IMG/VR virus record: IMGVR_UViG_3300024180_000004
Location: 1-64,000 of that record
DNA length: 64,000 nt
DNA from: a virus
Direction: 5' to 3' (one strand)
Shown here: piece by piece, positions 1 to 23,736 of the stretch
How the letters are laid out: each line of letters begins with the position of its first letter
How positions within the stretch are numbered: position 1 is the stretch's first letter
The notes under the pieces: generated by a model
Databases searched by the model: none
What the model saw: the letters and a program-made list of their open reading frames with translations, nothing else
What the model was told of the DNA's origin: nothing
Translations under genes and position numbers: made by a program

Positions 1-370
1 ATTTGAAAACTTCCAAGAGTCGGATCAAAAAAATATATTTGTATTTAATACAAACAAAGAGTTAAGAGGATTTGCAGAATGGAATACGCCGGAAGAAACC
101 TTAGAAAGTTTCAAATCTGATCTTTATTTTTTGGGACATGAAGAATATGAGGGTATCTTCGTAGAAGCTAAAGTTTCGGACAATGATATTATCATATCAT
201 TGGATTCTGATTATGGTTGGAGTAATAAAGAGTTAGAAGACTACATTAGTAAGAGAGAGAAAGATTTAGAGAAGTTCTTTAGAAATGTTCTAACTGAAAT
301 TTTAAACGATGATTATATTAAATTATATTCTATTGATGGTGAAAAAATAGATATTAAAAATGTAAAATAA
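1..370 (+). CDS. Partial small protein, 5' end outside the window
   Basis: The reading frame is open from base 2 to the TAA at 368-370, so the gene begins upstream of the window; the TTG at 131 is inside it and is not the start. The first visible residues are FENFQESD, which match the end of the N-terminal tag shared by many proteins here, so the missing start probably reads like MKxIKxFENF. The rest is acidic and lysine-rich, with no family I recognise. A hairpin terminator follows directly. Confidence 0.7.
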   Translation, partial: FENFQESDQKNIFVFNTNKELRGFAEWNTPEETLESFKSDLYFLGHEEYEGIFVEAKVSDNDIIISLDSDYGWSNKELEDYISKREKDLEKFFRNVLTEILNDDYIKLYSIDGEKIDIKNVK

Positions 371-390
371 TTCTACATTTAATAAAACTA

Positions 391-420
391 AAAAAACCAC
401 TCATTTTTGAGTGGTTTTTT
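391..420. terminator. Bidirectional hairpin terminator
   Basis: An ACCACTCA / TGAGTGGT stem is flanked by A and T runs and lies between two convergent genes, so it can serve both strands. The same CCACTCA...TGAGTGG stem recurs at other convergent ends in the window. Confidence 0.85.
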
Positions 421-434
421 ATATTTAATTTTTA

Positions 435-1025
435 TTAAAACTTTCTTTTGAATGTTCTGTTTTTGTAACTTTTAGATTCGCCAATTTTTTCAATATCTAC
501 TGCTTGTGCTTTAAGTGCTTGTGCTTCAGGATCTAAGCCAGTTTCAGTTTTATCTGGACCTTGTTCGAATTCACCTTGAGCTTGAGCTCTTCTTTGTGCT
601 TGAGCTTGAGCTCTTCTTTCTTTTTTACCTTGAGCTTCTTTTTGTGCCTCTGGGTTATTAAGGTAAGCAACAACTTTTTCGATATCATCTGTTTTCAAAT
701 CAATATCATCAACTCTAAATTTACCAGTTTCTGATGGTTGATCAATTTTATGACCTTCGTAGTTGATTACATTTCCTGATACCGAAGTACCTAGTAATTC
801 TGCCAATCCTGCTAATCCACCTTCTACTGCATCTAATTCATCACCATATGCTAATGGATTATCCTTTACACCTGGTTCTTCTGTAGGAATAACAGATGGC
901 CTAGATGGTCTCGGTGTTGACGGAGTTTCTGTTGGTGCTGGAATTGTTTCAGGAGTAACACTTGGTCTTGAAGGAGTAGGTGCGTTCTCATTTGTTTTTA
1001 CAAATTGATTATATTTTTTAATCAT
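435..1025 (-). CDS. Tagged Pro/Thr- and Gln/Ala-rich protein
   Basis: The protein has 196 residues and begins MIKKYNQFVKTNE, one of the clearest copies of the shared N-terminal tag. Residues about 15-55 are a Pro/Ser/Thr-rich low-complexity linker. A small folded segment follows (about 60-125), then a stretch of AQAQ and RRAQAQ repeats and a basic tail. No catalytic motif is visible. Its ATG overlaps by ATGA the end of a frameshifted small gene upstream. The tag and linker fit a protein packed inside the head, which is inference. Confidence 0.8.
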   Translation of the reverse strand: MIKKYNQFVKTNENAPTPSRPSVTPETIPAPTETPSTPRPSRPSVIPTEEPGVKDNPLAYGDELDAVEGGLAGLAELLGTSVSGNVINYEGHKIDQPSETGKFRVDDIDLKTDDIEKVVAYLNNPEAQKEAQGKKERRAQAQAQRRAQAQGEFEQGPDKTETGLDPEAQALKAQAVDIEKIGESKSYKNRTFKRKF

Positions 1026-1196
1026 CTTTTTAGACTTATTTTTTTAGTATATATTAAAATATTTTTTCCTTTTTTACTCTTCTTCACTTGCTTTTGAATG
1101 TCGCCAATTATCTTTGACTCTATTTTAGTGTTTCTACTTCTTGTACTATTTTCCCAATTGACTACCCATGAAGGACTCGAATTTTATTGTCTTCAT
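1022..1196 (-). pseudogene. Small tagged gene interrupted by a frameshift
   Basis: An ATG overlaps the TAA of the upstream gene (TAATG) and starts MKTIKFESFMGSQLGK before a TAG at 1148-1146. The tag is intact but the frame then closes. Shifting by +1 near base 1169 opens a frame that continues about 48 codons (WVVNWENSTRSRN and a lysine-rich tail) and ends in a TGA overlapping the ATG of the next gene. These two precise junctions suggest a former gene of about 57 residues with one indel, or a programmed shift. I do not recognise the protein. Confidence 0.45.
1048..1060 (-). promoter_or_regulatory. Putative late promoter motif (TTTAATATATA)
   Basis: Read on the minus strand the bases give ATTTTAATATATA, the motif that recurs before many genes here. 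It lies about 23 bases upstream of the ATG of the 435-1025 gene. Confidence 0.45.
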
Positions 1197-1696
1197 TATT
1201 CTTCGTTTTTATTTTCTAACTCACTGACTACATAGTCAATAAAGCTATCTAGTTCATATTCGTATCCTTCACAAAAGTCAAAAATGTCAAATTCATCTAA
1301 ATTAAAAACACTTATAAAATCAGGTATTGTCATTTTAGTATTTGTATTATATATTATCTTACCTTCTAATCTACCACTAATACTTTTACCACCCTTTAAT
1401 ATTAAATCGGGACAGTTTAAAATTCCAAAGTAATGTTTTTCATTATTATGGTATTCTATATGGTCAAATTCGAATTTGAATAATCCTGAATCATCTTCAA
1501 AGAATCGTTCGCTTTCTATTTTATTTAATTCTTGGTGTACGTTTTCTTCACCGCCATATTTGTGTGCATCTAAGAAATCTTTTTCTAAATTGGAAAGTGA
1601 CTTAATACCATGTTTTGATATTTTATCTAAAATATCATCGACTCTTTGTGCGGTTGTATATCCTTCGTATCTCATCAAGTGTTTCATAATTTTCAT
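1196..1696 (-). CDS. Unknown protein with N-terminal ILDKI-x-G-LT-EE-FL motif
   Basis: The protein has 166 residues. It begins MKIMKHLMRYEGY, a weak version of the shared tag. Residues about 18-45 read VDDILDKISKHG...SLSNLEKDFLD, a short helical module seen in three other proteins of this window and, as I recall, at the C-termini of some Bacteroidota membrane proteins (DUF6576-like). The remainder is acidic with predicted beta segments and no visible active site. Its stop overlaps the start of the small frameshifted gene downstream. Confidence 0.8.
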   Translation of the reverse strand: MKIMKHLMRYEGYTTAQRVDDILDKISKHGIKSLSNLEKDFLDAHKYGGEENVHQELNKIESERFFEDDSGLFKFEFDHIEYHNNEKHYFGILNCPDLILKGGKSISGRLEGKIIYNTNTKMTIPDFISVFNLDEFDIFDFCEGYEYELDSFIDYVVSELENKNEE

Positions 1697-1729
1697 TGGT
1701 TTATATATTATTTTTGAGAAACTTTTTTT

Positions 1730-2083
1730 TTATAAAATCGTCGTTTTCCAATTGTTTTGATAATCCGTCTCTATAATCTTTTTCTTTACTGCCTCATAAA
1801 CTGGTATAAGATTACCTGAGGTTTGATATATAGCAATATTATTTTTTTGATATTTTTCTGAATTGAAATCTTCTGGATCTTTATTATAAAGTATAGAGTC
1901 TATTTTATTTTCTCGATCACGAGTCTTTATAACATCAACATAACTATCTATAAAGAATATTATAAAACCATCTTCTACTTTGTGATTTTTAATCATATCA
2001 AAATCTATTCCTTCATAGAAATAAGTGGTTACATCATTTATTTCTATCTTTTCAATCAAAGTCAAATCCATCAAATAAATCAT
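1730..2083 (-). CDS. Unknown protein
   Basis: The protein has 117 residues and overlaps the upstream 79-residue gene by 32 bases in another frame, which suggests translational coupling. An alternative start, MDLTLIEKIEIND, lies four codons in and would reduce the overlap. Alternating hydrophobic and charged residues suggest a small mostly beta protein. No family is recognised. Confidence 0.7.
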   Translation of the reverse strand: MIYLMDLTLIEKIEINDVTTYFYEGIDFDMIKNHKVEDGFIIFFIDSYVDVIKTRDRENKIDSILYNKDPEDFNSEKYQKNNIAIYQTSGNLIPVYEAVKKKIIETDYQNNWKTTIL

Positions 2084-2291
2084 CTATTTTTTTATCTCTA
2101 AAAGAACCTTTTTGTTTACCTTCAAATTCTTCATCTTTTTCGAATTTATTTTTAAATTCTTCAAATGCTGTTCTTGATATTTTAGAAAGTGCCATAGCAC
2201 CGGTTGATATTTTACCTTCATTTAATTTGTCTGTTAGATAACTTACAAACATTGGATATAGTTTTTCATTTTTCATAGAATATATATCCAA
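2052..2291 (-). CDS. Unknown small acidic protein
   Basis: The protein has 79 residues and is mostly predicted helical, with a charged tail ending DDLFDGFDFD. Two starts are possible, MDIYSM and MKNEKLYP five codons later; the second leaves more room from the divergent promoter region at 2292-2329. It is the first gene of a minus-strand run that continues to 435. No family is recognised. Confidence 0.7.
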   Translation of the reverse strand: MDIYSMKNEKLYPMFVSYLTDKLNEGKISTGAMALSKISRTAFEEFKNKFEKDEEFEGKQKGSFRDKKIDDLFDGFDFD

Positions 2292-2312
2292 TAAGTACTT
2301 TCCGAAAATAAT

Positions 2313-2325
2313 TTATTTATATATA
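2313..2325 (+). promoter_or_regulatory. Putative promoter motif close to a start codon
   Basis: TTATTTATATATA is followed by only four bases before the ATG at 2330. If it is a -10 element, the transcript would have almost no leader. Confidence 0.4.
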
Positions 2326-2329
2326 CACT

Positions 2330-3061
2330 ATGATAAAAGATTTAAGTTTAGGACCAGTTTTCACAAGTAAGTATGGTGATGTGAATTCAATAAATTGGTT
2401 GAATGGAATCATCAAAAAGTATATTGCAGAGGTTTATAGACCTTTTGGATATTATTATGGATGTCCTAATAAAGACATTGATGTGGATGGTAGAAAAATA
2501 AATACAGAATATATTGCGAAGATGGTGAATAATTATACCGTTTTCAAAGGTATAATAGAGAAAGTTGGTATAACGACTGAGGAAGAATTTTATGATTATA
2601 TGACTAATAATTTATTTGATGTGTATAACTACAAAGGTCTTTACTTTGATGAAAAGACTTTACCAATTCTTATAGCAACCACCAGAAGAGGTAATAAAGG
2701 TGAACAAGATTCTTTAATTTTCTTTAAAAATGAATTACTTAAAAAGGGTATTCAATGTGTAATGATATCACCTACACCAGAAGAAGATTTATCAGGTATA
2801 GATGGTAAATTCATTTGGAATGGTAAAGAATTGACTATACAAGTAAAGCCTTATGATAATATTATGGAGAATGATGGTTTAGTGAGTGCGTACTCTCAAG
2901 GGTCGTTATCACTTAAAATAGTAGGATCTAGTAAAAATGTAGATTATTTAGTATTATATAAACTAGAAAAAAATAGCTTTATTATTGTTCGTTCAAGTAA
3001 TACTACTGTACAAGGTAATCTATTTAAATTCCCAAAAGATAAGATAATTTCAATGAAATAA
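2330..3061 (+). CDS. PD-(D/E)XK-type nuclease-like protein
   Basis: The protein has 243 residues. The C-terminal half holds the pattern of a restriction-like nuclease fold: GEQD at about 124-127 in a helix, GID at 156-158, then a strand ending TIQVK at 169-173. This matches the E...D...QxK variant of the PD-(D/E)XK site found in Mrr-like enzymes, where a metal-dependent cut is made in DNA. The N-terminal 110 residues are aromatic-rich and unknown. It stands alone on the plus strand between two minus-strand genes and ends at its own terminator. The assignment rests on motif order only. Confidence 0.55.
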   Translation: MIKDLSLGPVFTSKYGDVNSINWLNGIIKKYIAEVYRPFGYYYGCPNKDIDVDGRKINTEYIAKMVNNYTVFKGIIEKVGITTEEEFYDYMTNNLFDVYNYKGLYFDEKTLPILIATTRRGNKGEQDSLIFFKNELLKKGIQCVMISPTPEEDLSGIDGKFIWNGKELTIQVKPYDNIMENDGLVSAYSQGSLSLKIVGSSKNVDYLVLYKLEKNSFIIVRSSNTTVQGNLFKFPKDKIISMK

Positions 3062-3062
3062 A

Positions 3063-3092
3063 AAAGTCACTCATTCTGAGTGACTTTTTTAT
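3063..3092. terminator. Bidirectional hairpin terminator
   Basis: The stem AGTCACTCA / TGAGTGACT is flanked by A and T runs and lies between the nuclease-like gene and the convergent polymerase gene. Confidence 0.85.
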
Positions 3093-3104
3093 ATTTTCTA
3101 AAGT

Positions 3105-4572
3105 TTATATACCTCCAAAGCCATTGAATATATCCATTACGACTGACAATCTCTCAGTTATTTCTGGCATTCCCAACGGTTCGATAATCTTATTTATCGG
3201 TGCCAAAATACACTTAGCGAATTGAATATCATAATTTATTTCAGGTGCAATCTCAATAGGATAAGAACCTCTGATATATGCAAATATATCACCGTTATGT
3301 GTATCTTTACAATAATAATATTTTATCTTTGTTCCTGATTTTATAAACTCATATTTTGTTTGTAATAGTTTATTTTGATTTAATAAGTAATTATGATAAG
3401 CACTTGCCTTAACTGCAAAGTGTGCTCCATTTACAAACTTTAATGGTAATGATTTATCGTCAATTACTTTAGCATCATAGTTCGAACAAGAAGATTGCAT
3501 CGCGATATCGTCGATATCTGCTAACTCAAATTCTTTACGTAATGCTTTTATGAGTTTAAGTAAATCTTTGATGTTGAATGTATTTGAATTCTCAAATAAA
3601 TATTTAACAATATTGATAATTTTCTCCCTAGCGAAAAGTGGTGTTGATGATCTAACAAGTTCCACTCCTTTTGGGTATAAGTATGATAATCTTTCATAAG
3701 GTATACCATCTTCAAAAGAAACATGTTGTATGTATTTCTTCTTAGCCAGAGATATAATAGATTCTGATATTCTTTCTAACTCAAAATCTTCTTTATTATC
3801 TACTCCAAATCCTGCAGCATAATCTTCTAAACACTGTTTGAAATATCCACCATATCTGTAATGGTCCATTCCGTGTATATAGTCTACTTCTCTTGACCAG
3901 TTCCATTTTACATCACAGGTAAGAGAACCACTTGAAACTAAGTTCATAAAATCTCTATCTTTTATGAATAAACCATCTACAATTACCATTTCATAGTCCA
4001 TTGTTAAAAGCTTTTCAAAGTCATTATAGTTTTCTGCACCACCAAGATAATTTGGATTATCAGTATTGATTTTTTTTGGTGATAAAACGATAAATTTCTT
4101 ATCAATCTCACTTAATGATTTTGGATTTAGAAATAAATTCTCCCATTCTGAATGTTCTATTGCAGGTAGGAATGATACAAATAAAGAATCGGTATCTGCA
4201 TATATTGATACTGCTTCATTATTATTTATCTGTGTAACATTTCTAATACAAAGATTTTTATGGAATTCTTCATCTAAATGCCATTGATTATACCAATAAT
4301 CTTCATTTACCATATCCATAGTTTTTGTTAAATCCCTTCCTTGTGCTGTAATTGTGCCTGCAACATGATTATTATATAATATGAAGTAGGCTGTCGCGAA
4401 TGCTCCGTAAGAGCCGTTCAGTACTAATTTTAGTCTTTTTGCCCCCAGTAAAAAATACCGGGGGCTAAACAAGAGCGAGCTGAAGTGCGTTGTAGTATTC
4501 CGCTTCCTTCTTTAGCTCGCTCGCTTGTTTTTTTAAAGACTCGATTTTTGATATTTTATCTTCTCGTGTCAT
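3105..4572 (-). CDS. DNA polymerase family B, C-terminal part, interrupted by a 40-nt gap
   Basis: This is the palm and thumb part of a T4 gp43-like replicative polymerase. The first segment starts at ATG 4572 (MTREDKISKIE) and encodes ...KKEAEYYNALQLAL, then reads GTT TAG. The second, 40 bases on and in the +1 frame, encodes KLVLNGSYGAFA (motif B, K-x3-N-x-x-YG) and later YADTDSLF (motif C, the catalytic Asp pair), ending ...NGFGGI. Joining CTT at 4473-4471 to AAA at 4430-4428 restores the conserved Q-x3-K-x3-N spacing. An in-frame TAG upstream of the ATG shows that the exonuclease half is encoded elsewhere, as in phages with split gp43A/43B. A TTG at 4472 could start the second segment alone but would lose the QLAL helix. 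Confidence 0.85.
4431..4470 (-). other. 40-nt coding gap, candidate translational bypass element
   Basis: The segment separates leucine codon CTT (4473-4471) from lysine codon AAA (4430-4428) of polymerase motif B. It holds an in-frame TAG at 4467-4465. A 10-bp stem with a short T-rich loop occupies 4465-4441 (GCCCCCGGTA with TACTGGGGGC, one G-U pair). Its last three bases are CTA (4433-4431), a leucine codon readable by the same tRNA as CTT, so CTT could be take-off and CTA landing. A single +1 shift would instead add about 13 residues (SPRYFLLGAKRL) just before the motif B lysine. Confidence 0.6.
4474..4521 (-). other. Hairpin in coding RNA ending immediately before the gap
   Basis: On the minus strand AGCGAGCTAAAG (4521-4510) pairs with CTTCAGCTCGCT (4485-4474): 12 positions, one mismatch, 24-base loop. 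The stem ends at the base before the CTT codon at 4473. In T4 gene 60 a hairpin upstream of the take-off site helps bypassing, so the placement is notable. The segment is also much richer in G and C than its surroundings. Confidence 0.55.
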
Positions 4573-4652
4573 ATAATTTATATACTTTTTATTAAATAAG
4601 TTCTAAATGGAACTTATACTATTTGATATATATTTAAAATAGTATTATTTAT

Positions 4653-5756
4653 ATGGTAAAGGAGAAAGAAGTTTTAATTAAAATAAACATTAGAAATAGA
4701 GTTCATTTTGAAAGATTGGGGTATTCTATTGATGATGAGATATATGTTTCGGTTGTTGATTTGTTACCTGGTTCTAAATTTAAAGTCACTGCAATTTGTA
4801 AAATTTGTGAATCAGAAAATATACTACCATATAGTAAATATCTGGTAAATAAAAACAGAAATGGTAAAAATTACTATTCTTGCTTTCGTTGTAAAACACA
4901 TGTTAAGGAAAAAACTTGTATGGAAAGATATGGTGTAAAATCATATTCAATGACTAATGAATTTAGGGTATCAGAAAGTATAAAATGGAGAGGTATTAAA
5001 AAGGGTGGAGATAAAGGTGAAAAAACAATGTTGGAAAGGTATGGTGTAACATCATATTTTAAAACCGATAAGAGTAAAGAATATAATAGTAAATGGATGT
5101 CATCTGATGAGTTTAAAGAGAAGTCTAAGAGGACGATGTTGGAAAGATATGGAGTAGATCACTATTCAAAATCAAGTAAATTCAAAGAGTATATATCCTT
5201 AAATAAGGATCATATAGTTAATAAAATTAAAGAAACGTTTATTAATAAATATGGTGTGGATAACGCATTTAAATTAGGAAGTTATAAAAAGAAAATGTTA
5301 GATTGTAGAGATAGTATTGAATGTAGTAAAAGGGAAACTTGTATGGAAAGGTATGGTGTGGATAATGTATCAAAAGTGGATATTATTAAAGAAAAGAGGA
5401 AAAAAACATTATTAGGTAATGGTCAAATTGTACCGGATGATAAAATAACCTCCTGGGAACTTTATAAAAAAAATGTTAGAAATATGACTAAACGGAATAA
5501 AAAAATACTATATGAAGTATGGAACGGATTTGACTATTATGATAATGAATTTATTAAAGGTTATCTATCTCATACACATACACACCGGTTTTATCCGACG
5601 ATTGATCATAAAACTTCGGTATATTTTGGGTTTATAAATAAAATAGATCCAAATATAATTGGATCTATTGAAAATTTATGCATAACCAAAAGGTTCATAA
5701 ATTCAACTAAATCTAAAATGTGTGAAGAAGAGTTTTTAAAAATATTAAAGTCTTAA
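4653..5756 (+). CDS. Homing-endonuclease-like protein with zinc finger and ERYGV repeats
   Basis: The protein has 367 residues. Near the N-terminus are paired cysteines (CKIC about 50-53, then CFRC about 77-80), a probable zinc site. Next come five or six copies of a 25-40-residue unit built on T-C/M-x-E-R-Y-G-V-x-x-x-S-K, a DNA-binding repeat typical of phage homing endonucleases. The C-terminal part has TIDHKTSVYFG followed by ENLCITKRFINSTKSK, which fits the D-H...N...N pattern of HNH or beta-beta-alpha-metal nucleases. It sits between the split polymerase gene and the clamp gene and ends one base from the clamp gene with no terminator, as expected of an inserted mobile gene. Confidence 0.65.
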   Translation: MVKEKEVLIKINIRNRVHFERLGYSIDDEIYVSVVDLLPGSKFKVTAICKICESENILPYSKYLVNKNRNGKNYYSCFRCKTHVKEKTCMERYGVKSYSMTNEFRVSESIKWRGIKKGGDKGEKTMLERYGVTSYFKTDKSKEYNSKWMSSDEFKEKSKRTMLERYGVDHYSKSSKFKEYISLNKDHIVNKIKETFINKYGVDNAFKLGSYKKKMLDCRDSIECSKRETCMERYGVDNVSKVDIIKEKRKKTLLGNGQIVPDDKITSWELYKKNVRNMTKRNKKILYEVWNGFDYYDNEFIKGYLSHTHTHRFYPTIDHKTSVYFGFINKIDPNIIGSIENLCITKRFINSTKSKMCEEEFLKILKS

Positions 5757-5757
5757 A

Positions 5758-6546
5758 TCACTCATCTTCTTCTTCAAAGTCTTGTTCAAAGCTCAACATT
5801 AAATTTGAGTCTTCATGTTTTACTAACATAAAGTTATCAAATATATGAAATTTAACATCACCGGAATCATTTACACATGATAGAAATTTCTTATTAAGTA
5901 TTAGATTAGAATTTCTTTCATCATCTATTTTATCTATCTCAAGTTCCCATGCCGATGTTTCTGATACAACAACTTTACCGGAACTTACACCAATTTGTAA
6001 TATCTTATCACCATTTATATTAGATAGTTTTTTTATATCTGTGAAATCATCTTTACTTATATTGAATGACCATCTACTATTTTTAATATTAAGACCTTGG
6101 TTTAGTTTACTTAAACTCATGTCTTTTATTTCATAATGTTCACCACCAATCCAATTGACTTTTAGTTTACCACCAACGATTTGTAATGCTCTTGCATCCA
6201 TTATATCTTCATCATCTTGTGATTCTTTATGTGTTATTTCAATAGTGACTTTCTCATTATCTTTTAAAAAATTTAAATTTTTAACAAATTTCTTTGCATT
6301 TAGGATAATAATATCTATACCATATTCTAAGTCTTCTTTTATTTCAAATAGATCGTTAGTTTTTATAATGTAATTTTTAAATGCTAGAATTGTTGCTTTC
6401 CCTAGAATAGAATACATCATAATATTCTCACTATCTATCTTAATTTTAATATTATCAGATATCTTAGTAAGGTCTTCTAACTTAGATATAAACTCTGAAA
6501 ATTTTTCTGATTTTATTCTAAATTTATCTTTTCCTGATTTTGCCAT
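5758..6546 (-). CDS. Probable sliding clamp (gp45-like)
   Basis: The protein has 262 residues; T4 gp45 has 228. Two similar halves each have a helix followed by strands, as in PCNA-fold clamps. The C-terminal half, FNISKDDFTDIKKLSNINGD followed by KILQIGVSSGKVVVSE, lines up with the T4 gp45 second domain. The ends are acidic (DFEEEDE). A trimer of this protein would hold the polymerase on DNA and, with gp55-type factors, activate late transcription. It lies near the polymerase gene; the clamp loader is at 59.4 kb. The assignment is by pattern, not clear identity. Confidence 0.6.
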   Translation of the reverse strand: MAKSGKDKFRIKSEKFSEFISKLEDLTKISDNIKIKIDSENIMMYSILGKATILAFKNYIIKTNDLFEIKEDLEYGIDIIILNAKKFVKNLNFLKDNEKVTIEITHKESQDDEDIMDARALQIVGGKLKVNWIGGEHYEIKDMSLSKLNQGLNIKNSRWSFNISKDDFTDIKKLSNINGDKILQIGVSSGKVVVSETSAWELEIDKIDDERNSNLILNKKFLSCVNDSGDVKFHIFDNFMLVKHEDSNLMLSFEQDFEEEDE

Positions 6547-6600
6547 AAGTAAATTTTATTTCTACACATGATATAAAGAAAGTCAAATTTTGTTTATTTT

Positions 6601-6612
6601 TTTTAATATATA
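6601..6612 (+). promoter_or_regulatory. Putative promoter motif close to a start codon
   Basis: TTTTAATATATA is followed four bases later by the ATG at 6617. It precedes a run of four tagged genes ending at the 8127 terminator. Confidence 0.45.
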
Positions 6613-6616
6613 ACTT

Positions 6617-7135
6617 ATGATTAAAAAATATAACCAATTTATAAGAGAGTTTATTGAAACAACTGGCTTTGTTGATACCAAGATGCAAGAATTAAAGGAT
6701 CTAATAGATGGTGTGTCCGATGGGGAGAACATTATATATGAGTGGGAGAATAAAGAGGATCATCAATTATTAGTAAACTTTACAACTGGTGAACTTTCAC
6801 TTAGATATGAATTTGATATAGATGATTTAAATGTAACTAAGATTGCAGGTGACACCGTGGACTTCAAAACTGATGTAGAATCTATAGAAGAAGGATTGGA
6901 TCTAATAGAGAAAGATATTCAGTCTATATTAGGTATTGATGAAAAAGGTAAAATACCAAAGAAGTATCTTACTAGAAAACCAAAGGCTATGAAAAAGGAA
7001 ATTGAGAAATTCAAAGGTAAGAAAGAATATAAAAAGGATTGGGAAGCAGACTACGACAAAAGAAGTGGTAAAAGGATAAAGACTAAAAAGTCGAGTTCGA
7101 CTAAGGCGTACCAAAAAATGTTTGGCAAAAAATAA
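6617..7135 (+). CDS. Tagged unknown protein
   Basis: The protein has 172 residues and begins MIKKYNQFIREFIE, a near copy of the tag on the 435-1025 protein. The middle is acidic with alternating strands. The last 60 residues are strongly basic (KKEYKKDW, KRIKTKKSSSTK), which suggests contact with DNA or RNA. It leads a cluster of four small tagged genes with gaps of 2-11 bases. No family is recognised. Confidence 0.8.
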   Translation: MIKKYNQFIREFIETTGFVDTKMQELKDLIDGVSDGENIIYEWENKEDHQLLVNFTTGELSLRYEFDIDDLNVTKIAGDTVDFKTDVESIEEGLDLIEKDIQSILGIDEKGKIPKKYLTRKPKAMKKEIEKFKGKKEYKKDWEADYDKRSGKRIKTKKSSSTKAYQKMFGKK

Positions 7136-7143
7136 ATGATCAT

Positions 7144-7413
7144 ATGAAATATATTAAAAAATATAACGAATTGATAAAAGAAAATACTAATCAATCAGAA
7201 ATTAAAGAATTAGATTCTAATATATTAGATATCTATAATAAAATTTATAAAGAACAATTACTTAAATGTATTAAACATTCTATAAAATATAATTTAGGTA
7301 GAAATTATAATGAAAAACATGATGCGATTGGTCTAACATATTATAAAATAAAAGAGCTTTATTCTGATAATAAAGAATTGGTTGAATATGCATATAAAAG
7401 GTTTTTAAAATAA
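7144..7413 (+). CDS. Tagged small protein
   Basis: The protein has 89 residues and begins MKYIKKYNELIKEN. After the tag it is lysine- and tyrosine-rich and mostly helical. It starts 8 bases after the previous gene and is followed 11 bases later by the next tagged gene. No function can be given. Confidence 0.75.
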   Translation: MKYIKKYNELIKENTNQSEIKELDSNILDIYNKIYKEQLLKCIKHSIKYNLGRNYNEKHDAIGLTYYKIKELYSDNKELVEYAYKRFLK

Positions 7414-7424
7414 ATCATTGTAAT

Positions 7425-7793
7425 ATGAAAAATATATTAACATTCGAATCATTTTCAGAAGAAGTTGATTATGAAAAATACTTCTATTTAGTAGAAGATA
7501 TACTTATACTTGAAGAGGTCACTGCGGGTTCAATTGATAATCCCGATTCAAAAGCTGGTAAAATGATTAAAAACAAATCAAAACAGAGTGGGATTCCGGT
7601 TGGAATTCTTAAAAAGGTTTATAAAAAAGGCCAAGCTGCCTGGAATTCTGGTCATCGTCCAGGGACACCACAACAAGCCTGGGCAACTGGTCGTGTAAAT
7701 AGTTTTATTACTGGGTCTGGTGGTGCAAGAAAAGCTGATGCTGATTTATGGAAAAAGGCAAAGGCAGCTAAAGCAAAAAAGAAAAAGAAATAG
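7425..7793 (+). CDS. Tagged protein with a basic conserved phage module
   Basis: The protein has 122 residues and begins MKNILTFESFSEE. Residues about 55-110 form a compact module with the landmarks SGIPVGILKKVYKKG, AWNSGHRPGTPQQAW and GRVNSFITG...KADADLW, which I recall as a recurrent module of large-phage small proteins. The C-terminus is a lysine run. The basic character suggests nucleic-acid binding inside the capsid. It ends in TAG, which shows TAG is used as a normal stop in this genome. Confidence 0.8.
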   Translation: MKNILTFESFSEEVDYEKYFYLVEDILILEEVTAGSIDNPDSKAGKMIKNKSKQSGIPVGILKKVYKKGQAAWNSGHRPGTPQQAWATGRVNSFITGSGGARKADADLWKKAKAAKAKKKKK

Positions 7794-7795
7794 AT

Positions 7796-8119
7796 ATGAA
7801 ATATTTAAAATTATATGAAAACTTTGATAACTTAAAAAAGGAAGTTATTGATTTTATAGAGAAAAACTATGATGAGGTGAAAACTGCAGAAATGTTCGAT
7901 GATGAAATTTTTAGTAGTAACTGGGTAGATAATGATTGGGATGAAGATGGTGAATATGAATCAGAATATGATTGGTATGTTGATCATGGAAGAGGTGAAG
8001 TAGAGTATGCGGTTATCGAGACCATCAAGGCTGACATTATTAGTAAAATACCTGGTTCTGAAAAATTAGATTTACATGATATTATTGTGGATCTTAGAGA
8101 TTTATTAAATACATATTGA
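7796..8119 (+). CDS. Tagged acidic small protein
   Basis: The protein has 107 residues and begins MKYLKLYENFDNLKKE. It is very acidic in the middle (DNDWDEDGEYESEYDW) with a predicted helical end. It is the last of four closely spaced tagged genes and is followed by a terminator. No function can be given. Confidence 0.8.
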   Translation: MKYLKLYENFDNLKKEVIDFIEKNYDEVKTAEMFDDEIFSSNWVDNDWDEDGEYESEYDWYVDHGRGEVEYAVIETIKADIISKIPGSEKLDLHDIIVDLRDLLNTY

Positions 8120-8126
8120 AATATGA

Positions 8127-8152
8127 AAAGCCACTCAAATGAGTGGCTTTTT
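8127..8152. terminator. Bidirectional hairpin terminator
   Basis: AAGCCACTCA / TGAGTGGCTT stem between convergent genes, with T run on the plus strand and A run on the other side. Confidence 0.85.
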
Positions 8153-8154
8153 CT

Positions 8155-9225
8155 TTATACGTTATATTTAAAGTTATGATTCTCTTCTATATTAAGAAGT
8201 GTTTGATAAATCAACTTAATAACATTCTTAACATCTTCTTTATGTACGGTCTCCACCGTAGTATGCATGTAACGAAGTGGTAATGAAATCAATACAGAAG
8301 GAACTCCACCATTTGAATATGCGAATGCGTCTGTATCTGTTCCTGTGGATGTTGAACTGGCTGCTAACTGGAAAGGAATTTTATTTTTATCTGCAACATC
8401 CAGTACTAATTTTCTTAGTTTGTTATGAACAGCTGGTGCTCTTGTGATAACACCACCATTACCTGCAATAAATTCACCTTCTTTACTTGGAGTATAACAA
8501 GGTGATGATGTTTCATGACAAACATCTGTAATTATCGCTACATTTGGTTTAATTGTTTGTGTAATCATTTGTGCACCTCTTAGTCCAATTTCTTCTTGAA
8601 CAGAATTTACTATATAAAGTTTGAATGGTAATTCTTTACCTTTCTCTTTTAGCTTTCTGGCAACTTCTGCAATCATGAATCCACCGATTCTATTATCTAG
8701 TGCTCTTCCTGTGTAGTAATCAGTTCCAAGTTTCATAAATTGATCTTTGAAAGTAATTACGGTACCAATATTGATACCCATTTGTATAACTTCTTCCTTA
8801 CTTGATGCACCAACATCAATAAAGATAGAATCTAAATCCGCTTCTTTCTTTCTATAAGAAATATGAATTGCTGGGTGTCCAAAGATACCATCTACTGGAC
8901 CTTTATCACCCCAAAGTGTAACTCTCATAGATGGTGCGATTGTCGCATCTGATCCACCATTTCTAATTACTTTGATATAACCTTTTGAGTCAATGTGGTT
9001 TACCATCCAACTGATTTCATCGCAATGTGCTTCAATTACTACTTTAAAGTCTGAGTCCATATTACCCATAACACCATATGCGGTTCCATAGTTATCTAGT
9101 TCTACTTTATCAACATATTTAGAGATGTGATCCATCCACATTTTCTGACCACCCAATTCGTATTCGAATCCAGTTGGTGCATTACTATTTAGGTACTTTT
9201 CTAAAAATTTTTCGTCTATTTTCAT
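8155..9225 (-). CDS. M42 family metallo-aminopeptidase
   Basis: The protein has 356 residues, the normal length for M42 (FrvX/glutamyl aminopeptidase) enzymes, which remove N-terminal residues from peptides with a two-metal site. All expected ligands are present: H67 and D69 in EAHCDEI, the bridging D177 in ALDNRIGG, the general base E211 and ligand E212 in QEEIGLRGA, D234 in TDVCHE and H321 in RYMHTTVE. It has no signal peptide or tag, so it should act in the host cytoplasm. It is transcribed away from a two-gene unit encoding an aminotransferase. Such peptidases are unusual in phages; transfer from a host is likely. Confidence 0.9.
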   Translation of the reverse strand: MKIDEKFLEKYLNSNAPTGFEYELGGQKMWMDHISKYVDKVELDNYGTAYGVMGNMDSDFKVVIEAHCDEISWMVNHIDSKGYIKVIRNGGSDATIAPSMRVTLWGDKGPVDGIFGHPAIHISYRKKEADLDSIFIDVGASSKEEVIQMGINIGTVITFKDQFMKLGTDYYTGRALDNRIGGFMIAEVARKLKEKGKELPFKLYIVNSVQEEIGLRGAQMITQTIKPNVAIITDVCHETSSPCYTPSKEGEFIAGNGGVITRAPAVHNKLRKLVLDVADKNKIPFQLAASSTSTGTDTDAFAYSNGGVPSVLISLPLRYMHTTVETVHKEDVKNVIKLIYQTLLNIEENHNFKYNV

Positions 9226-9234
9226 TTATTTAAG

Positions 9235-9323
9235 TTTAAGTTTACTTTATTTTATATGTATTTTTTTAATTTTGTTTACTGAACAAATAGTATTGTATAA
9301 TATATAAACAGAGTAAACTTAAA
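9235..9323. repeat. 12-bp inverted repeat in a divergent promoter region
   Basis: TTTAAGTTTACT at 9235-9246 is the exact reverse complement of AGTAAACTTAAA at 9312-9323. Each copy lies just before one of the two divergent start codons, so both genes carry the same 12-base leader sequence. This could be an operator pair or a shared leader element. Confidence 0.5.
9294..9307 (+). promoter_or_regulatory. Putative late promoter motif
   Basis: TGTATAATATATAA lies about 22 bases upstream of the ATG at 9329 and matches the recurrent AATATATAA motif. Confidence 0.45.
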
Positions 9324-9328
9324 TTATA

Positions 9329-9700
9329 ATGAAATTTAGATTAAAAGAAGATTGGTATATTTATAACTTTTTTGATAAAGTAAAAATCTATGATAAGGGA
9401 GAAGTATTTTTACCTGACGATGATGGTAGATATATGATGAAGGATTTTGATGGTAAAGAAATGTTCCTAAGGTTTGATGATATGTTAAGTGTTAAAGGTA
9501 TTGGTGAAGATGGTTTACCTGGAGAACCAATATTTGAGGTAATTGATGAACAAGAGATTGAGTTACTTGTTGAGGAAGTTCCTGAGGATAAAGATAATGA
9601 GATAAAGAACTGGCGAATACAGTTGGATGTTAAAACATCTTTGAAAAATCTTAAAAAGATAGAAATTTTTATTAAAGAAAATATTAAAGAAATGTTATGA
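9329..9700 (+). CDS. Unknown acidic protein
   Basis: The protein has 123 residues. The first 70 alternate strands and turns (DKGEVFLPDDDGRYMMKDFDG); the end is a charged helix. It overlaps the aminotransferase start by ATGA, so the two are translated together. No family is recognised; I infer only that it works alongside, or is coregulated with, the aminotransferase. Confidence 0.75.
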   Translation: MKFRLKEDWYIYNFFDKVKIYDKGEVFLPDDDGRYMMKDFDGKEMFLRFDDMLSVKGIGEDGLPGEPIFEVIDEQEIELLVEEVPEDKDNEIKNWRIQLDVKTSLKNLKKIEIFIKENIKEML

Positions 9701-10782
9701 ATATAAATACTGCGAATGTGAGTTATTCTTCCATAGTACAAATAGGGGAAAATATAACCAAAATTGAAAAAGAAACTGGTGAAAAATATCTAAAACTACA
9801 CCGAGGTGTAATGGATGTTACTACATTAGATATTGATTCTTTAAAATTGGATCTTAATCTAAATAATACAAAGACTCAACAATATAGTGGTAATGATGGT
9901 AGTTTAGAATTGATTGATACTATAAAAGAAGAGTTTGGTTTAGAAGGTCATGTCGTTATGACACCTGGTGGAATGGCAGGTTTAGATTTGATTATAAACT
10001 CTTTAGGTGACCAAACTATCTGGATCCCTAACTATCATTGGGGTTCTTGGAATAAGATACTTACAACACATGGAAAGGATATTAAAACATTTGATGATCT
10101 TAACATTGATGATTTCATGCCTAAAGATGGTGTGGTTATGCTTTGTTATCCATCAAACCCTACTGGTTATTGTCCAGATTCTGAGATTATTAAAAGTTTC
10201 CTTATAAGAGCTAGAGAAGCGGGTGTTACGGTTATATTAGATTTACCATATTACTATCTTTTTAATGATGTAAATGATGGTTTATCTGATTTCTTTTTTG
10301 ATAATGTTATTTTAGTATCTTCTTTTTCTAAATCTATTGGTCTTTCAGGATATCGAGTTGGATTTATATCAACTAAAAATGAAGAATTGTATCAGACACT
10401 TAGAATAAGGTCATTATATAAATATAATTCAATTTCAAATTTACCACAATTTATAATAAATGAACTTCTTAAAGAAAAGACTGCTATAACTGAATATAGA
10501 AAGAAGACTGTTGATAGTATCAAAAAAAATATAATGGTTCTTGAGATGCACGGACTTCTATTTGATGAATATCCAGTATTACCAACTGGTCCATTTGCGG
10601 TTGTAAATGTTTCATATGATGAATTATTGAAATATAAAATATCTAGTGTACCTTTAAGTAAGTTTACTTTGAATAAACAACTGAAACATGAAAATTGTAG
10701 TAGGATATCGGTGGCGGTTGATCATAAAGTGTTCTGGGAGTATTTTGAGAAAATGTTTGTAAATGAAAAAACCACTTTTTAA
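9697..10782 (+). CDS. PLP-dependent class I/II aminotransferase
   Basis: The protein has 361 residues and follows the aspartate-aminotransferase fold: a glycine-rich cofactor loop TPGGMAG (89-95), N155 in PSNPTG, the pyridine-binding D182 and Y185 in DLPYYY, the Schiff-base lysine K212 in SSFSKSIGLSG, and R220 in GYRVGF. It should swap amino groups between an amino acid and a keto acid; the substrate cannot be read from the sequence. It lacks about 30-40 residues compared with typical bacterial enzymes, mainly at the N-terminus. It overlaps the previous gene by four bases. The terminator hairpin overlaps its last codons. Aminotransferases are rare in phages. Confidence 0.85.
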   Translation: MNINTANVSYSSIVQIGENITKIEKETGEKYLKLHRGVMDVTTLDIDSLKLDLNLNNTKTQQYSGNDGSLELIDTIKEEFGLEGHVVMTPGGMAGLDLIINSLGDQTIWIPNYHWGSWNKILTTHGKDIKTFDDLNIDDFMPKDGVVMLCYPSNPTGYCPDSEIIKSFLIRAREAGVTVILDLPYYYLFNDVNDGLSDFFFDNVILVSSFSKSIGLSGYRVGFISTKNEELYQTLRIRSLYKYNSISNLPQFIINELLKEKTAITEYRKKTVDSIKKNIMVLEMHGLLFDEYPVLPTGPFAVVNVSYDELLKYKISSVPLSKFTLNKQLKHENCSRISVAVDHKVFWEYFEKMFVNEKTTF

Positions 10783-10794
10783 GTGGTTTTTTTT
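10767..10794 (+). terminator. Hairpin terminator overlapping the gene end
   Basis: The stem AACCACTT / AAGTGGTT spans the last codons of the aminotransferase and is followed by eight T residues. Confidence 0.75.
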
Positions 10795-10805
10795 ATATAT
10801 AGTAT

Positions 10806-10952
10806 ATGAAGCATTTAAAATCTTATAAGTTATTTGAAAATTTGGGATCGCTACCAGTTAAGAGATTTCCTACTGGTCCGGCAATTCATTTTAATTATTT
10901 AGAGGGTATACTAAAATCGGCTGGTATCGATATGTATAGAGATTCGAACTGA
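10806..10952 (+). CDS. Tagged 48-residue protein
   Basis: ATG 10806 opens MKHLKSYKLFENLG and runs 48 codons to TGA 10950-10952. A TATATATAG motif precedes it closely. After the tag come FPTGPAIHFNYLEGILK and a short end. Beyond the TGA the same frame stays open for 15 codons (WNVYKGITYEGMTSF), so the gene may have been truncated when the methylase cassette next to it arrived. That is inference. Confidence 0.6.
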   Translation: MKHLKSYKLFENLGSLPVKRFPTGPAIHFNYLEGILKSAGIDMYRDSN

Positions 10953-11012
10953 TGGAACGTTTATAAAGGAATAACATACGAGGGTATGACATCGTTTTAA
11001 TGTGCTATACAC

Positions 11013-11027
11013 GTTGTTAGCCACAGT
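11013..11027 (+). repeat. Left inverted repeat flanking the Dam gene
   Basis: GTTGTTAGCCACAGT matches the reverse complement of 11754-11768 at 14 of 15 positions. It lies 36 bases before the methylase start. Confidence 0.65.
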
Positions 11028-11062
11028 AATTTAACAGATAAAATTAAATAGAATTAAATAGA

Positions 11063-11764
11063 ATGAAATACTTAGGAAGTAAAAATAGAATAGCAAAACA
11101 CATATTACCATTAATGCTTGAAGGTAGAACCAATGAAACTTGGGTAGAGCCTTTTGTTGGGGGTGCTAATATTATTGATAAAGTAAAAGGGAATAGAATA
11201 GGTGCAGACAAGAATGATTATTTGATACATCTATTTAAGTCATTACAGAAAGGATACGAGCCACCTAAAGAAGTTAGTAAAGATTTCTTTTTTGAAGTTA
11301 AGGCAAATGAAGATAAGTACCCTAAAGAGTTGTATGCTTATTTAGGTTTTGGATTAACTTTTGGTTGTGAATGGTGGGGCAGTTTTAGAAGGGATAATAC
11401 AGGTAAAAGAAAATATGACTTAGAAGCATATAATAATGTGATGAAACAAGACTTAAACGGTATTAATTTTATTTGTAGTGACTATAAAGATTTAGAGGTA
11501 CCTAAAAATAGTATAATTTACTGCGACCCACCATACGAAGGTGTTAGAAAATATATCGGATTTAAGGATTTTAACCACAATGATTTTTGGGAATGGTGTA
11601 GAATTAAGACAAAGGAAGGTCATAAGGTTTTTATTTCTGAATATAATGCTCCAATAGACTTTAAATGTATTTGGGAGAAAGAAATATCTGCAAGTGCAAA
11701 TAACTCTATAAAAAACGGACAAGGTAAAAAAGCAACTGAGAAGCTATTTATGTATTGTGGCTAA
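11063..11764 (+). CDS. dam: DNA adenine N6-methyltransferase (D12/Dam class)
   Basis: The protein has 233 residues. It starts MKYLGSKNRIAKHILPLML, typical of D12 enzymes, with the S-adenosylmethionine loop FVGGAN at 31-36 and the catalytic DPPY at 155-158. It should methylate adenine in a short DNA site, perhaps protecting phage DNA from host restriction. Its base use differs from its neighbours, with more G and C. The TAA stop lies inside the right inverted repeat. Together these suggest it was acquired as a discrete cassette, probably from a bacterial genome. Confidence 0.88.
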   Translation: MKYLGSKNRIAKHILPLMLEGRTNETWVEPFVGGANIIDKVKGNRIGADKNDYLIHLFKSLQKGYEPPKEVSKDFFFEVKANEDKYPKELYAYLGFGLTFGCEWWGSFRRDNTGKRKYDLEAYNNVMKQDLNGINFICSDYKDLEVPKNSIIYCDPPYEGVRKYIGFKDFNHNDFWEWCRIKTKEGHKVFISEYNAPIDFKCIWEKEISASANNSIKNGQGKKATEKLFMYCG

Positions 11765-11768
11765 CAAC
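11754..11768 (+). repeat. Right inverted repeat flanking the Dam gene
   Basis: ATTGTGGCTAACAAC is the inverted partner of 11013-11027 and contains the methylase stop codon. The TAAC/GTTA core recalls integron cassette ends, but the full attC consensus is not met. Confidence 0.65.
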
Positions 11769-11833
11769 CATATATACGTACTTTAACTAAAAATTAGATT
11801 ATTATAAAGAAATTTAAAAAAAATAGTAAAATT

Positions 11834-12166
11834 ATGAAAAATTTGAAAAAATTTGAGTCATTTAACCCATATGATGATGAACCATTGACAAGAGGTGAAG
11901 AGATGTTTGGTAAAAAAACAAGATTAGAAAAACAATTTTCTAAAATAGTTGTGAAAGGATTGATAGATGATGATACTGGATATTGGTCAACATTCAATGC
12001 ACTTAAAATTGAATTAAAGGATGAATGTGATGAAGTCACATTTAAAGAACTACAAACAAGAGTTGTTGAAGATGAAAATCCAACAGAAGTTATGAATGAT
12101 ATTTGTTCAAGAATTGAACAAAATTCTGAAATAAAAAGATTATTGAAAAAGTTAAACTCTTTTTAA
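11834..12166 (+). CDS. Tagged unknown protein
   Basis: The protein has 110 residues and begins MKNLKKFESFNPYDDE, a clear tag. The rest is charged and helical (KELQTRVVEDENPTEVM) with no recognised domain. It stands between the methylase cassette and a terminator. Confidence 0.8.
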   Translation: MKNLKKFESFNPYDDEPLTRGEEMFGKKTRLEKQFSKIVVKGLIDDDTGYWSTFNALKIELKDECDEVTFKELQTRVVEDENPTEVMNDICSRIEQNSEIKRLLKKLNSF

Positions 12167-20751: not shown

Positions 20752-23736
20752 ATGGCTCAGAATATAGGAACATTAGTAGGTTCTGCAATAAGACCGATAG
20801 ATAGTACAATGCCAATTGCATCAGCATTTGCATTTGAAATAAATGGTGGACACCATCAGGTTGGTACTTTAGTTGATAGAAATAATATAATGGTTCAGAG
20901 AAGGCAATGGGGTATGTTATGTACGGTTTATAATGACTCTGTTAACAATGGAACATATCAACTTAAATATGGTTATAGTAGTACAGATTCAATGGATAAT
21001 AGTAATTGGGTTTTATTTGGTGGTGGATCTGTCGGATCTGGAGTTTCCAATTGGAATGATCCTGTTATATCAATTTCCACGACACCACCTACATATCCAG
21101 TTGATGGTGATAGATACCTTGTTGGTAAAAGTTCGACGGCTTCTTTAAGTGGTATATTTTCTAGTTTAACTAATACAGGATATGTTGGGAATCTAGTTGG
21201 TGGATATATTGCTGAATATAAAGATGCACTTAGTGGTTGGGAAACAACTCTACCTACTAATGGGATGACTATAAGAGTTAATAATGATGATAATTCATTT
21301 TATAGATATGAGGGAACATATTCGACTGGTCAATGGTATAAGGAAAGAGTTAATCAAGTTAGATCATTATTTGCAACAAGTGTTAATAAAATAGATTATA
21401 CGGTAAGTACTGGTGACTTCTTCACATATTCAACCGAAGTAGTTTATTTGGTACAATTTGCAACTGCTAATTCAGGTGGTACTGCGTCTATAAATATCAA
21501 TAGTTTGGGTACTAAGAATATGAAAAAGCAAACATCTACTGGAATTGTTGATTTGGATGCAAATGATTTAAATACTACAGGTTTTTATCAACTCATATAT
21601 GATGGTACATATTTTCGAGTAAATATTATAGGTGGTTCTAATACCGGTTCATCGTCTTTGAAGTATAAAATTGTCGAGGATGAAAGGATTGTTGTGCCTG
21701 CAAACTCTGAATATCTTTTATATGGTGATCTTGAGGTTAATGGTGTTTTAGATATTAGTTCAACAGGAAAAGTTGTTATAATAAACGGTGCATTAAATGT
21801 TAATGGTGGTACTGTTTCTAATTCTGCGAATGTATCATTAATTACTTTACCTACTTCATTAACAAGTGGGACTTCAGGAACAAGTGGGACTTCGGGAACA
21901 AGTGGGACTTCGGGAACAAGTGGGACTTCGGGAACAAGTGGTATAGCAGGTGATAGATATTTAACATTTACAAATTCAAATCTAACAATAACAGATGTAT
22001 TTGATACGATTTTATCATTTACTATAGAAACCGGATTTGCATATTCTATAAATCAATCTATAATAGTCACTCTATCGTTAGGAAATTATATGGAGGCTAT
22101 AGTAACAAGTTATGACTCTGGAACAGGTGCAATGACCGCAAAGGTTATAAATGGATATGGTAGTGGGAGTGGTACAGGACCTTGGATTATAAATCTTGAT
22201 GGTGCATCTGGTGGAGATGGAACTTCAGGAATTGATGGAACAAGTGGAACCTCGGGAATTGACGGAACTTCTGGAACAAGTGGAACCTCAGGAATTGATG
22301 GAGCTTCTGGAACAAGTGGAACTTCAGGAATTGATGGGGCTTCTGGAACAAGTGGAACCTCAGGAATTGATGGAGCTTCCGGAACAAGTGGAACTTCAGG
22401 AATTGATGGAGCTTCCGGAACAAGTGGAACTTCAGGAATTGACGGAACTTCTGGAACAAGTGGAACTTCTGGAACAAGTGGAACCTCAGGAATTGATGGA
22501 GCTTCTGGAACAAGTGGAACTTCAGGAATTGATGGAGCTTCCGGAACAAGTGGAACCTCAGGAATTGACGGAACTTCTGGGACAAGTGGAACCTCAGGAA
22601 TTGACGGAACTTCTGGGACAAGTGGAACCTCAGGAACTTCTGGAACAAGTGGAACCTCAGGAATTGACGGAACTTCTGGGACAAGTGGAACTTCTGGAAC
22701 AAGTGGAACCTCAGGAATTGACGGAACTTCTGGAACAAGTGGAATAACTTGGAATGGTGGAACGGTATCTAACCCAGTCTTCTTCACAAACACGGTTAGT
22801 TTAAATGGGTCGGTTGTTGGTGATATAGAATACCTCACGGATTATTCATCAACTTATACAAACAGAAGTTTAGTTGATAAAGAATATGTTGATACAAATA
22901 TTTTATTCGAAACTGGTGGTGGATTAAACTCAACACAAAGAAAGAGTTTTGGAAATGCATTAGGTGCAAAGTCGTTCGCGTTGGGTACTGGAAACACAGC
23001 ATCTGGTGAAAACTCTTCTATTCTTGGAGGACAAAATAATATTGTTAGTGGATTAAATGGTATTATATTAGGTGGTCAAATAAATAATGTTACAAATCAA
23101 GAAGGGTCTATCATTGGTGGTAATAATAACTCAGTTACAGCAAATAGGTCATCTATTTTAGGTGGTCGTGAGAATGAGATAACTCAATCTGATGGTGTTA
23201 TAATTGGTGGTATATTTAATACTGTTAGTGGTGCTAATTCAGTTATTATTGGTGGAACTGGAAGTTTCGTCAATGGTATCAACTCTGTAATCATTGGTGG
23301 TGTGGGACTTACAAATAGTGTAAATAATACGGTTATGGTTCCAGATTTAAATGTTCAAGGTGGGGCATATGTAAATAATAATTTAGATGTTGATGGACAA
23401 ATATCAGTAGGAACAAGTTATTCGAACGCATTCACATCCAACACATTTAACTTTGACTGTGACCAAGGGATGGTGCAACATGTAGATGCACAAGGTATGT
23501 CAGCGAATGGTACTATCACTTTTAGTAATCAAAAAGAAGGTAGTACATATACATTATTATTCGTACAAGGAAGTGGTACATATGATGTAGTTTTACCAAG
23601 TGGTTATTGGTTAAACGATACAGCACCATTTGACTTTTCAACTGAGTTAGTCGATGATGAGAGAGCAATAATTACAGCAACCTATATATTTAATGCTTGG
23701 TACTTTGCTGTTAAAAAAGTAACTTATGTTGCATGA
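20752..23736 (+). CDS. Tail fibre with collagen-like repeats and head-type repeats
   Basis: The protein has 994 residues. An N-terminal domain (1-370) is Gly/Ser/Asn-rich. A first Gly-x-y block of GTS units follows (about 372-398), then a short domain and a second, longer Gly-x-y block (about 487-665) built from GTS, GID and GAS triplets. Residues about 740-870 repeat SSILGGxxNxVxG units, like trimeric autotransporter head repeats. The C-terminal 110 residues ([17 protein letters not shown]) form a beta domain that may bind the receptor. A trimeric fibre is the natural reading. Its stop overlaps the next start by ATGA. Confidence 0.8.
21864..21942 (+). repeat. 18-bp tandem repeats coding GTSGTS
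   Basis: About four nearly identical 18-bp copies encode the first collagen-like block of the fibre. Confidence 0.75.
22213..22745 (+). repeat. Tandem repeats coding (G-x-y) GTS/GID/GAS triplets
   Basis: Over 500 bases of 9-, 18- and 27-bp units encode the long collagen-like block. Copies differ by single bases. Long open frames on other strands and frames here are by-products of the repeat. Confidence 0.85.

Follow-up and report, generated by a model that had tools for sequence, protein, structure and literature searches.

The window, by which we mean the whole 64,000-nt stretch of DNA analyzed, comprises bases 1–64000 of a 94,747-base virus record that is possibly a fragment. Its minus strand encodes the C-terminal half of a family B DNA polymerase (PF00136, E 8.1e-16; phrog_262, E 2.6e-43), and the reading frame of this half is interrupted in motif B (Table 1). 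ORF1 aligns gap-free with intact relatives. After the CTA codon that closes the gap, reading continues from position 4430 in another frame as AAA TTA GTA CTG AAC GGC (KLVLNG). The initial annotation reported a stop and a hairpin followed, after a gap of 40 nt, by KLVLNG in another frame, and the minus strand reads as described. It also had a second hairpin end exactly before CTT. This was corrected: 12 of 13 positions pair in the upstream helix, which includes the C of CTT. Take-off at the codon after CTT was considered and rejected by eye, since motif B would lose KL. An assembly error had been named as a finding that would undo the claim; the same gap is present in separate contigs (L035, L036, L060 and L064), which argues against such an error.

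Table 1. Features of the interrupted polymerase half-gene and its surroundings in the window
Feature	Position	Strand	Description
ORF2	3105..4430	minus	Remaining polymerase C-terminal half, KLVLNGSYG..., 441 aa; PF00136, phrog_262
Landing codon CTA (inferred)	4431..4433	minus	Leu; synonymous with take-off CTT
Gap, 40 nt	4431..4470	minus	GTT TAG, hairpin, tail, CTA; missing from intact relatives
Take-off-side hairpin, 10 bp	4441..4465	minus	Begins 5 nt past take-off codon
In-frame stop TAG	4465..4467	minus	Second codon past take-off
Take-off codon CTT (inferred)	4473-4471	minus	Last codon of ORF1
ORF1	4471..4572	minus	First 34 codons of polymerase C-terminal half, MTREDK...NALQLAL; start ATG 4572
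Upstream helix, 3' arm	4473..4485	minus	Terminates in take-off codon
Upstream helix, 5' arm	4510..4522	minus	Inside ORF1
GAGTC, codons E-S	4538..4542	minus	Region able to pair with gap tail 4438-4432 in the window; pairing not general
HNH-type homing endonuclease gene, DUF7487	4653..5756	plus	367 aa; divergent from polymerase half; putative mobility partner

The polymerase had been described as a broken gene. Motif B does carry the gap; the gene was, however, already split, and the record holds the C-terminal half alone. No exonuclease-domain match was found in the window's record, possibly a fragment, and PF03104, representing the N-terminal half, was matched in 8 of 15 records searched. The two halves are widely separated wherever both could be located (for example by ~96 kb in G004 and ~132 kb in G009), and the window is thus not alone in having a split polymerase. 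Two separate polymerase genes are also found in Chryseobacterium phage MA9V-1, a cultured, distant relative. Among cultured phages, the best-matching relatives have Chryseobacterium, Flavobacterium, Tenacibaculum and Prevotella as hosts, all members of the Bacteroidota. Beside the endonuclease gene, positions 5758-6546 (minus strand) hold a possible sliding-clamp gene, judged by position and appearance and without a Pfam or PHROG match. Long ORFs with collagen-like GTSGTSG/GIDGTSG repeats are present at 20752-23736 of the window and at L004:5555-8227.

Related loci were collected by similarity search, which yielded 70 loci; further scans mostly returned the same contigs. Motif B was read in 54 distinct sequences and in L082. 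An equivalent gap is present in 33 of these 55 and absent from 22. Removal of L014, L021 and L051, near-duplicates of L013, L020 and L049, left 30 non-redundant gaps. Left out of the counts were L025 and L038, whose contigs begin in or past motif B, and the distant L073, L146 and L243-L252, in which no gap was seen on reading; the motif B counts also do not take in L165-L167. Two gap-targeted pattern scans returned one new gap sequence, L082, which protein similarity found as well. The site B pattern gave 14 stretches, of which L149, L151, L153, L154, L157 and L159 were unrelated on reading. In bacterial and archaeal genomes 31 stretches fit a pattern, none encoding a relative. A scan of 802 ORFs against 80 sequences for gaps in other genes returned polymerase gaps only, plus an intein split in L049/L050/L051; its sensitivity was partial, recovering the polymerase gap in 22 sequences and missing known ones (e.g. 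L013, L016 and L030). All results reported here are inferences from the sequence of metagenomic contigs, and relatedness among these inflates locus counts.

Intact relatives of the near group read uninterrupted through ...YYNALQLALKLVLNGSYGAF or close to it. Comparison with the uninterrupted gene in related phages had been proposed as a check, and these relatives do carry the rejoined sequence. The 30 gaps lie at six points of motif B: A' (QLA^L, 4 gaps), A (QLAL^K, 14, window included), E (KLV^L, 1), C (LNG^S, 2), D (NGS^Y, 1) and B (NGSY^G, 8). They are 36–48 nt long, with the three phases represented 8, 13 and 9 times. Removing the gap restores the motif of intact relatives, and no stop interrupts ORF2 for at least 191 codons. 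Seven of the 30 ORF2 open lengths are shorter than the rest (191–202 codons). Six of these, in L045, L048, L049, L054, L061 and L069, are by eye apparently interrupted a second time, by an intein at motif C; L082, the seventh, falls outside this reading. Intein-like sequence at motif C was seen by eye in L045, L048, L054, L061, L069-L071, L049-L051 and L063, as two ORFs in most and as a single continuous ORF in L063. In several phages one half-gene thus seems to hold both a bypass-type gap and an intein. An intein was rejected as the identity of the gap itself, which spans only 36–48 nt and in 22 of 30 loci is not a multiple of 3.

The take-off codon and the landing codon encode the same amino acid in all 22 gaps at sites A, A', C, D and E and in none of the 8 at site B. 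The matched pairs are CTT/CTA, CTG/CTA, GCT/GCA, GCT/GCT, GTT/GTT, GGT/GGT and TCT/TCA; at site A, 13 of 14 pair CTT with CTA and one CTG with CTA. Where the insertion point is shifted by one codon (A' vs A), the hairpin and the matched codon shift along with it. At site B, a Tyr codon (TAT/TAC) faces AAC three times, TAA twice, and AGC, CAA and GAC once each, never a Tyr codon; by our own reading, two of three positions are compatible with the Tyr tRNA in 6 of the 8. A stop follows as codon 1 (4 gaps) or codon 2 (22 gaps) past take-off in 26 of 30, the exceptions being L026, L068, L069 and L072, and the codon immediately past take-off is a sense codon in 26. A hairpin of 9–14 bp begins 5–6 nt past the take-off codon in 28 of 30 loci; in L022 and L026 it begins at 3 nt and the stem is longer. 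From stem to landing codon is 3–11 nt.

Structure in the coding sequence upstream of take-off was scored against 300 synonymous-codon shuffles per locus. Excess structure (z < -2.9) precedes take-off in 28 of 30 gap loci, the exceptions being L022 (-0.12) and L026 (-1.90). None of 44 tests on the 22 intact sequences reached this threshold, and the lowest value was -2.04. At sites A and A' the structure is a helix ending in the take-off codon, with 6–13 of 13 pairs formed and means of 10.6 (16 site A) and 12.4 (5 site A'), both inclusive of the near-duplicates L021, L051 and L014. The same register in the 22 intact relatives averages 5.9 pairs (range 3–10), and one of them, L029, has 10 of 13 pairs unaided. 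The helix covaries: across 19 sequences (L014 included), 6 of 13 pairs are changed on both sides, a number reached in none of 500 shuffles, and 87% of cells are paired vs 30–42% in slid controls. Most site B loci likewise have a strong fold ending close to take-off. Covariation there in one fixed register was not significant, and a register slid by 3 scored higher.

A serine in ORF1, encoded within GAGTC in the window, is found in 24 of 30 gap loci and in none of the 22 intact ones; it could be explained by structure, by cassette origin or by the nascent peptide. Pairing of the gap tail with the upstream GAGTC as a three-way junction was rejected as a general feature, a duplex of -5.4 kcal/mol or better being found in only 8 of 18 site A/A' loci and pairing better than that of shuffled tails (p ≤ 0.05) in only four (L008, L020, L049 and L068). 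In the first 75 nt past landing no excess structure was found (mean z -0.02, n = 30), by a measure that would miss the 3' stem-loop of T4 gene 60 itself because T4 scores only -0.31.

The window's endonuclease matches PHROG homing endonucleases. The best alignment of its predicted C-terminal domain is to an HNH nicking endonuclease (91 residues, rmsd 5.2) at Z 7.4, a modest value, as are all below 8, and the whole model has a pTM of 0.38. Foldseek, run with the model, returned nothing at E ≤ 0.001. The HNH assignment draws on the C-terminal structural alignment, the PHROG names and a conserved C-terminal block. Of the 30 gap loci, 19 have a DUF7487-type endonuclease gene or remnant no more than 2 kb upstream, vs none of 22 intact loci (Fisher 8.7e-7, kinship ignored). 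Of the 19, L020, L030, L068 and L082 are short remnants or cut by the contig end, and the other 11 gap loci have no such endonuclease match. The intact L039, L041 and L063 do have matches, located elsewhere. A second short DUF7487-like endonuclease ORF was seen by eye at L003:7383-7805, adjoining an RNase R-like gene in the same record. Near the polymerase half of L012, L022, L026 and others lies a phage IF-3 gene, which does not track the gap because it accounts for 3 of 35 ORFs at gap loci and 5 of 39 at intact loci. SmpB is matched by one ORF close to an intact locus.

On the polymerase tree, loci with and without a gap, and the different insertion points, are scattered. On 47 rows, with 8 sequences of fewer than 300 aa past the gap omitted, gap states require at least 20 changes vs a mean of 22.3 for shuffled labels, a value as low arising in 25 of 200 shuffles. 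L013 (site A') and L026 (site B) have 1285 of 1308 nt in common from motif B on, and their gaps are differently placed. The intact L012 and L016 (site B) come from closely related phages, with main blastn segments 90–95% identical. L016 holds an additional 0.86 kb with the endonuclease gene, and its identity to L012 is 67–87% in four 30-nt ORF1 windows upstream of the gap and 83–100% downstream. L022, which carries a gap and neither helix nor endonuclease gene, is similarly diverged from L012 in ORF1 (73–87%), which counts against a simple cassette story. Endonucleases 57–62% identical to that of the window, compared in L045 and in L005, L008, L054, L055 and L067, accompany gaps at sites A and E; related enzymes thus occur with different insertion points.

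These observations are probably best accounted for by programmed translational bypassing of a gap that is carried on a mobile homing cassette, in the manner of T4 gene 60 and with a different architecture. Peptidyl-tRNA-Leu would sit on CTT in the P site, with the A site filled or obstructed by the GC-rich hairpin, leaving the next sense codon and the stop behind it unread. The upstream helix, its 3' arm lying beneath the ribosome, would zip up behind it and help to release the mRNA. The peptidyl-tRNA would then leave CTT, the ribosome slide ~40 nt and the tRNA re-pair at CTA, with translation resuming at AAA, the Lys of motif B. Gap, recoded upstream stretch and adjacent endonuclease gene would move jointly as a homing cassette, and the gap would presumably keep the endonuclease from attacking the polymerase gene of the carrier itself. 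A hairpin can lodge in the A site and interfere with the binding of tRNA (PMC7282821, in excerpt), and a short A-site hairpin has been reported at the T4 gene 60 take-off site (PMC7282821, PMC11194080, in excerpts). A-site inhibition was seen only with a hairpin 11–12 nt from the first P-site nucleotide (PMC7282821, in excerpt); here the distance is 8–9 nt, and a T4-like dock is therefore assumed, not a position at the channel entry. Bypassing, as the initial annotation proposed, appears to be the best-supported reading, favored by the codon match throughout the sites other than B, the nearly constant hairpin distance and the selected upstream structure. The rejoined sequence of intact relatives and purifying selection on the broken copies also point to it.

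The codon mismatch at site B is the main point without an explanation. It would be explained if the codon matching were incidental, as it would be were the gaps extremely small mobile introns of 36–48 nt, removed by a reaction of a kind not yet described, guided by structure and making use of the recoded upstream exon; this we think unlikely. The chief competitor of bypassing, though equally unlikely, is such a micro-intron: the hairpin would be excised from the mRNA by a host or phage nuclease and the flanks joined by a ligase before translation. The upstream helix and hairpin are equally suited to positioning cleavage sites, and RNA ligase genes (PF09414) were found in 8 of 12 records. The distribution of ligase genes does not follow that of the gaps, however (3 of 7 records with gaps, 5 of 5 without), and RtcB was found in none of the 12, which are possibly fragments. 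Every junction falls on a codon boundary, and take-off and landing are matched at five sites. By eye, nothing is common to the gaps across sites beyond the stop, the hairpin and an A-rich tail. Covariance models found no group I or II intron, nor any other intron or ribozyme family, in positions 1-12000 of the window at E up to 5; the sole match over the gap, to L17DE, is at chance level (E 4.2, 21.2 bits vs a cut-off of 37). We know of no group I or II intron core as short as 36–48 nt. Close behind the micro-intron reading comes a class of bypassing able to land without a full codon-anticodon match; imperfect take-off/landing matches are reported for yeast mitochondrial bypassing (PMC5009743, in excerpt).

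A further splitting of the gene, with ORF1 and ORF2 made apart and then assembling, is very improbable. Splitting has a precedent in this polymerase, which is already in two parts, and in some relatives inteins have, by eye, apparently divided it again. Some start codon precedes the resume codon in the ORF2 frame in 10 of 30 loci. In the other 20, however, no ATG, GTG or TTG follows the last stop ahead of the resume codon, the first downstream ATG is 10–38 codons further on, and the breaks fall at six points inside a catalytic motif. Still harder to credit is a ribosomal frameshift through the gap in place of a skip. A +1 shift could serve in the window, where the downstream frame has no stop as far back as -84. 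A downstream-frame stop at -6 (7 of 30 gaps) or -3 (2 of 30) forbids entry upstream of the landing codon, which pins the landing point and refutes a frameshift for these nine, and with gap lengths in all three phases no single shift fits. A dead gene, which the interrupted frame might suggest, is scarcely credible against dN/dS of 0.030–0.209 in the 14 computable of 16 gap-gap pairs (two saturated), a single catalytic-half locus in each of the 8 gap-bearing records searched (possibly fragments), and a gap carried by 33 of 55 distinct relatives. Intact pairs gave dN/dS of 0.077 and 0.110 (two computable of four), and the broken polymerase genes are, by these ratios, under purifying selection.

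The polymerase gap most likely works like that of T4 gene 60, as an analog and not as a demonstrated relative. In T4 a 50-nt gap follows codon 46, near the start of a piece split from a larger gene. It too has a stop beside take-off, matched take-off and landing codons, a take-off hairpin, a 5' stem-loop and a nearby HNH homing endonuclease gene (mobA, annotated as defective), an insertion described in PMC2988022 (in excerpt). The 5' stem-loop of T4 is thought to pull the mRNA while forming behind the ribosome, and the gap is possibly protective against a gene-splitting endonuclease (PMC5009743, in excerpt). The gene differs, being here a family B polymerase and not a topoisomerase. The T4 hairpin lies at the stop codon itself, with 5 bp within the gap and 10 bp counting the take-off codon, whereas the hairpin here is a strong one of 9–14 bp beginning 5–6 nt past take-off. 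Upstream structure in T4 scores z +0.5 by the scoring that finds strong structure at the polymerase loci; the architectures of T4 and of the polymerase gaps are therefore not closely matched, and bypassing cannot be read from this measure alone. KKYK is present in T4 ORF1 and absent from the polymerase ORF1 peptides listed. The 3' stem-loop of T4 has no visible counterpart at the polymerase loci, by a measure that would miss it in T4 too. The polymerase gaps further differ from T4 in having six insertion points and many alleles. The earlier description as a second, different bypass element was right in that the element differs from T4 and understated in that it belongs to a gap family, probably moved by an endonuclease.

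Other systems are similar in part. In Magnusiomyces capitatus mitochondria short blocks inserted into coding sequence are skipped in translation at 81 sites, in several cases with imperfect take-off/landing matches; that skipping is seemingly independent of mRNA context and tied to relaxed mitochondrial decoding (PMC5009743, in excerpt). The polymerase gaps, in contrast, have strong structure and an endonuclease association, and occur in a bacterial virus and in one gene found so far. A free-standing homing endonuclease gene also lies at the split polymerase gene 43A/43B of Aeromonas phage 25 and at another essential gene in mobE/nrdA of Aeh1; their pieces are separate proteins, and the excerpts consulted describe no skipped gap within a piece. 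The Streptomyces phage Hau3 terminase is a candidate for bypassing in a phage gene, with a much shorter gap tied to UUA decoding. The Prevotella loescheii adhesin is a candidate in a bacterial gene, with a 29-nt hop that was never followed up. For neither is an insert family described (PMC5009743, in excerpt). Other huge phages have fragmented genes, introns and endonuclease-split polymerases (PMC12363816, in excerpt). Neither a bypass gap in a phage DNA polymerase nor a family of phage bypass gaps was found in the open-access literature, subscription papers being outside the scope of the search.

Long bypassing in phages has so far rested, in the literature examined, on one demonstrated case, T4 gene 60, and the rules of bypassing have therefore been drawn largely from one sequence. 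The gaps described here suggest that T4 is not alone in such skipping. With about 30 natural gaps and empty alleles in close relatives, the codon pair, hairpin distance, helix and stop can be read by comparison. Bypass gaps are suggested to be a recurrent solution for homing endonucleases invading essential sites, comparable at the level of translation to introns and inteins, and genes that appear broken in phage metagenomes may be expressed.
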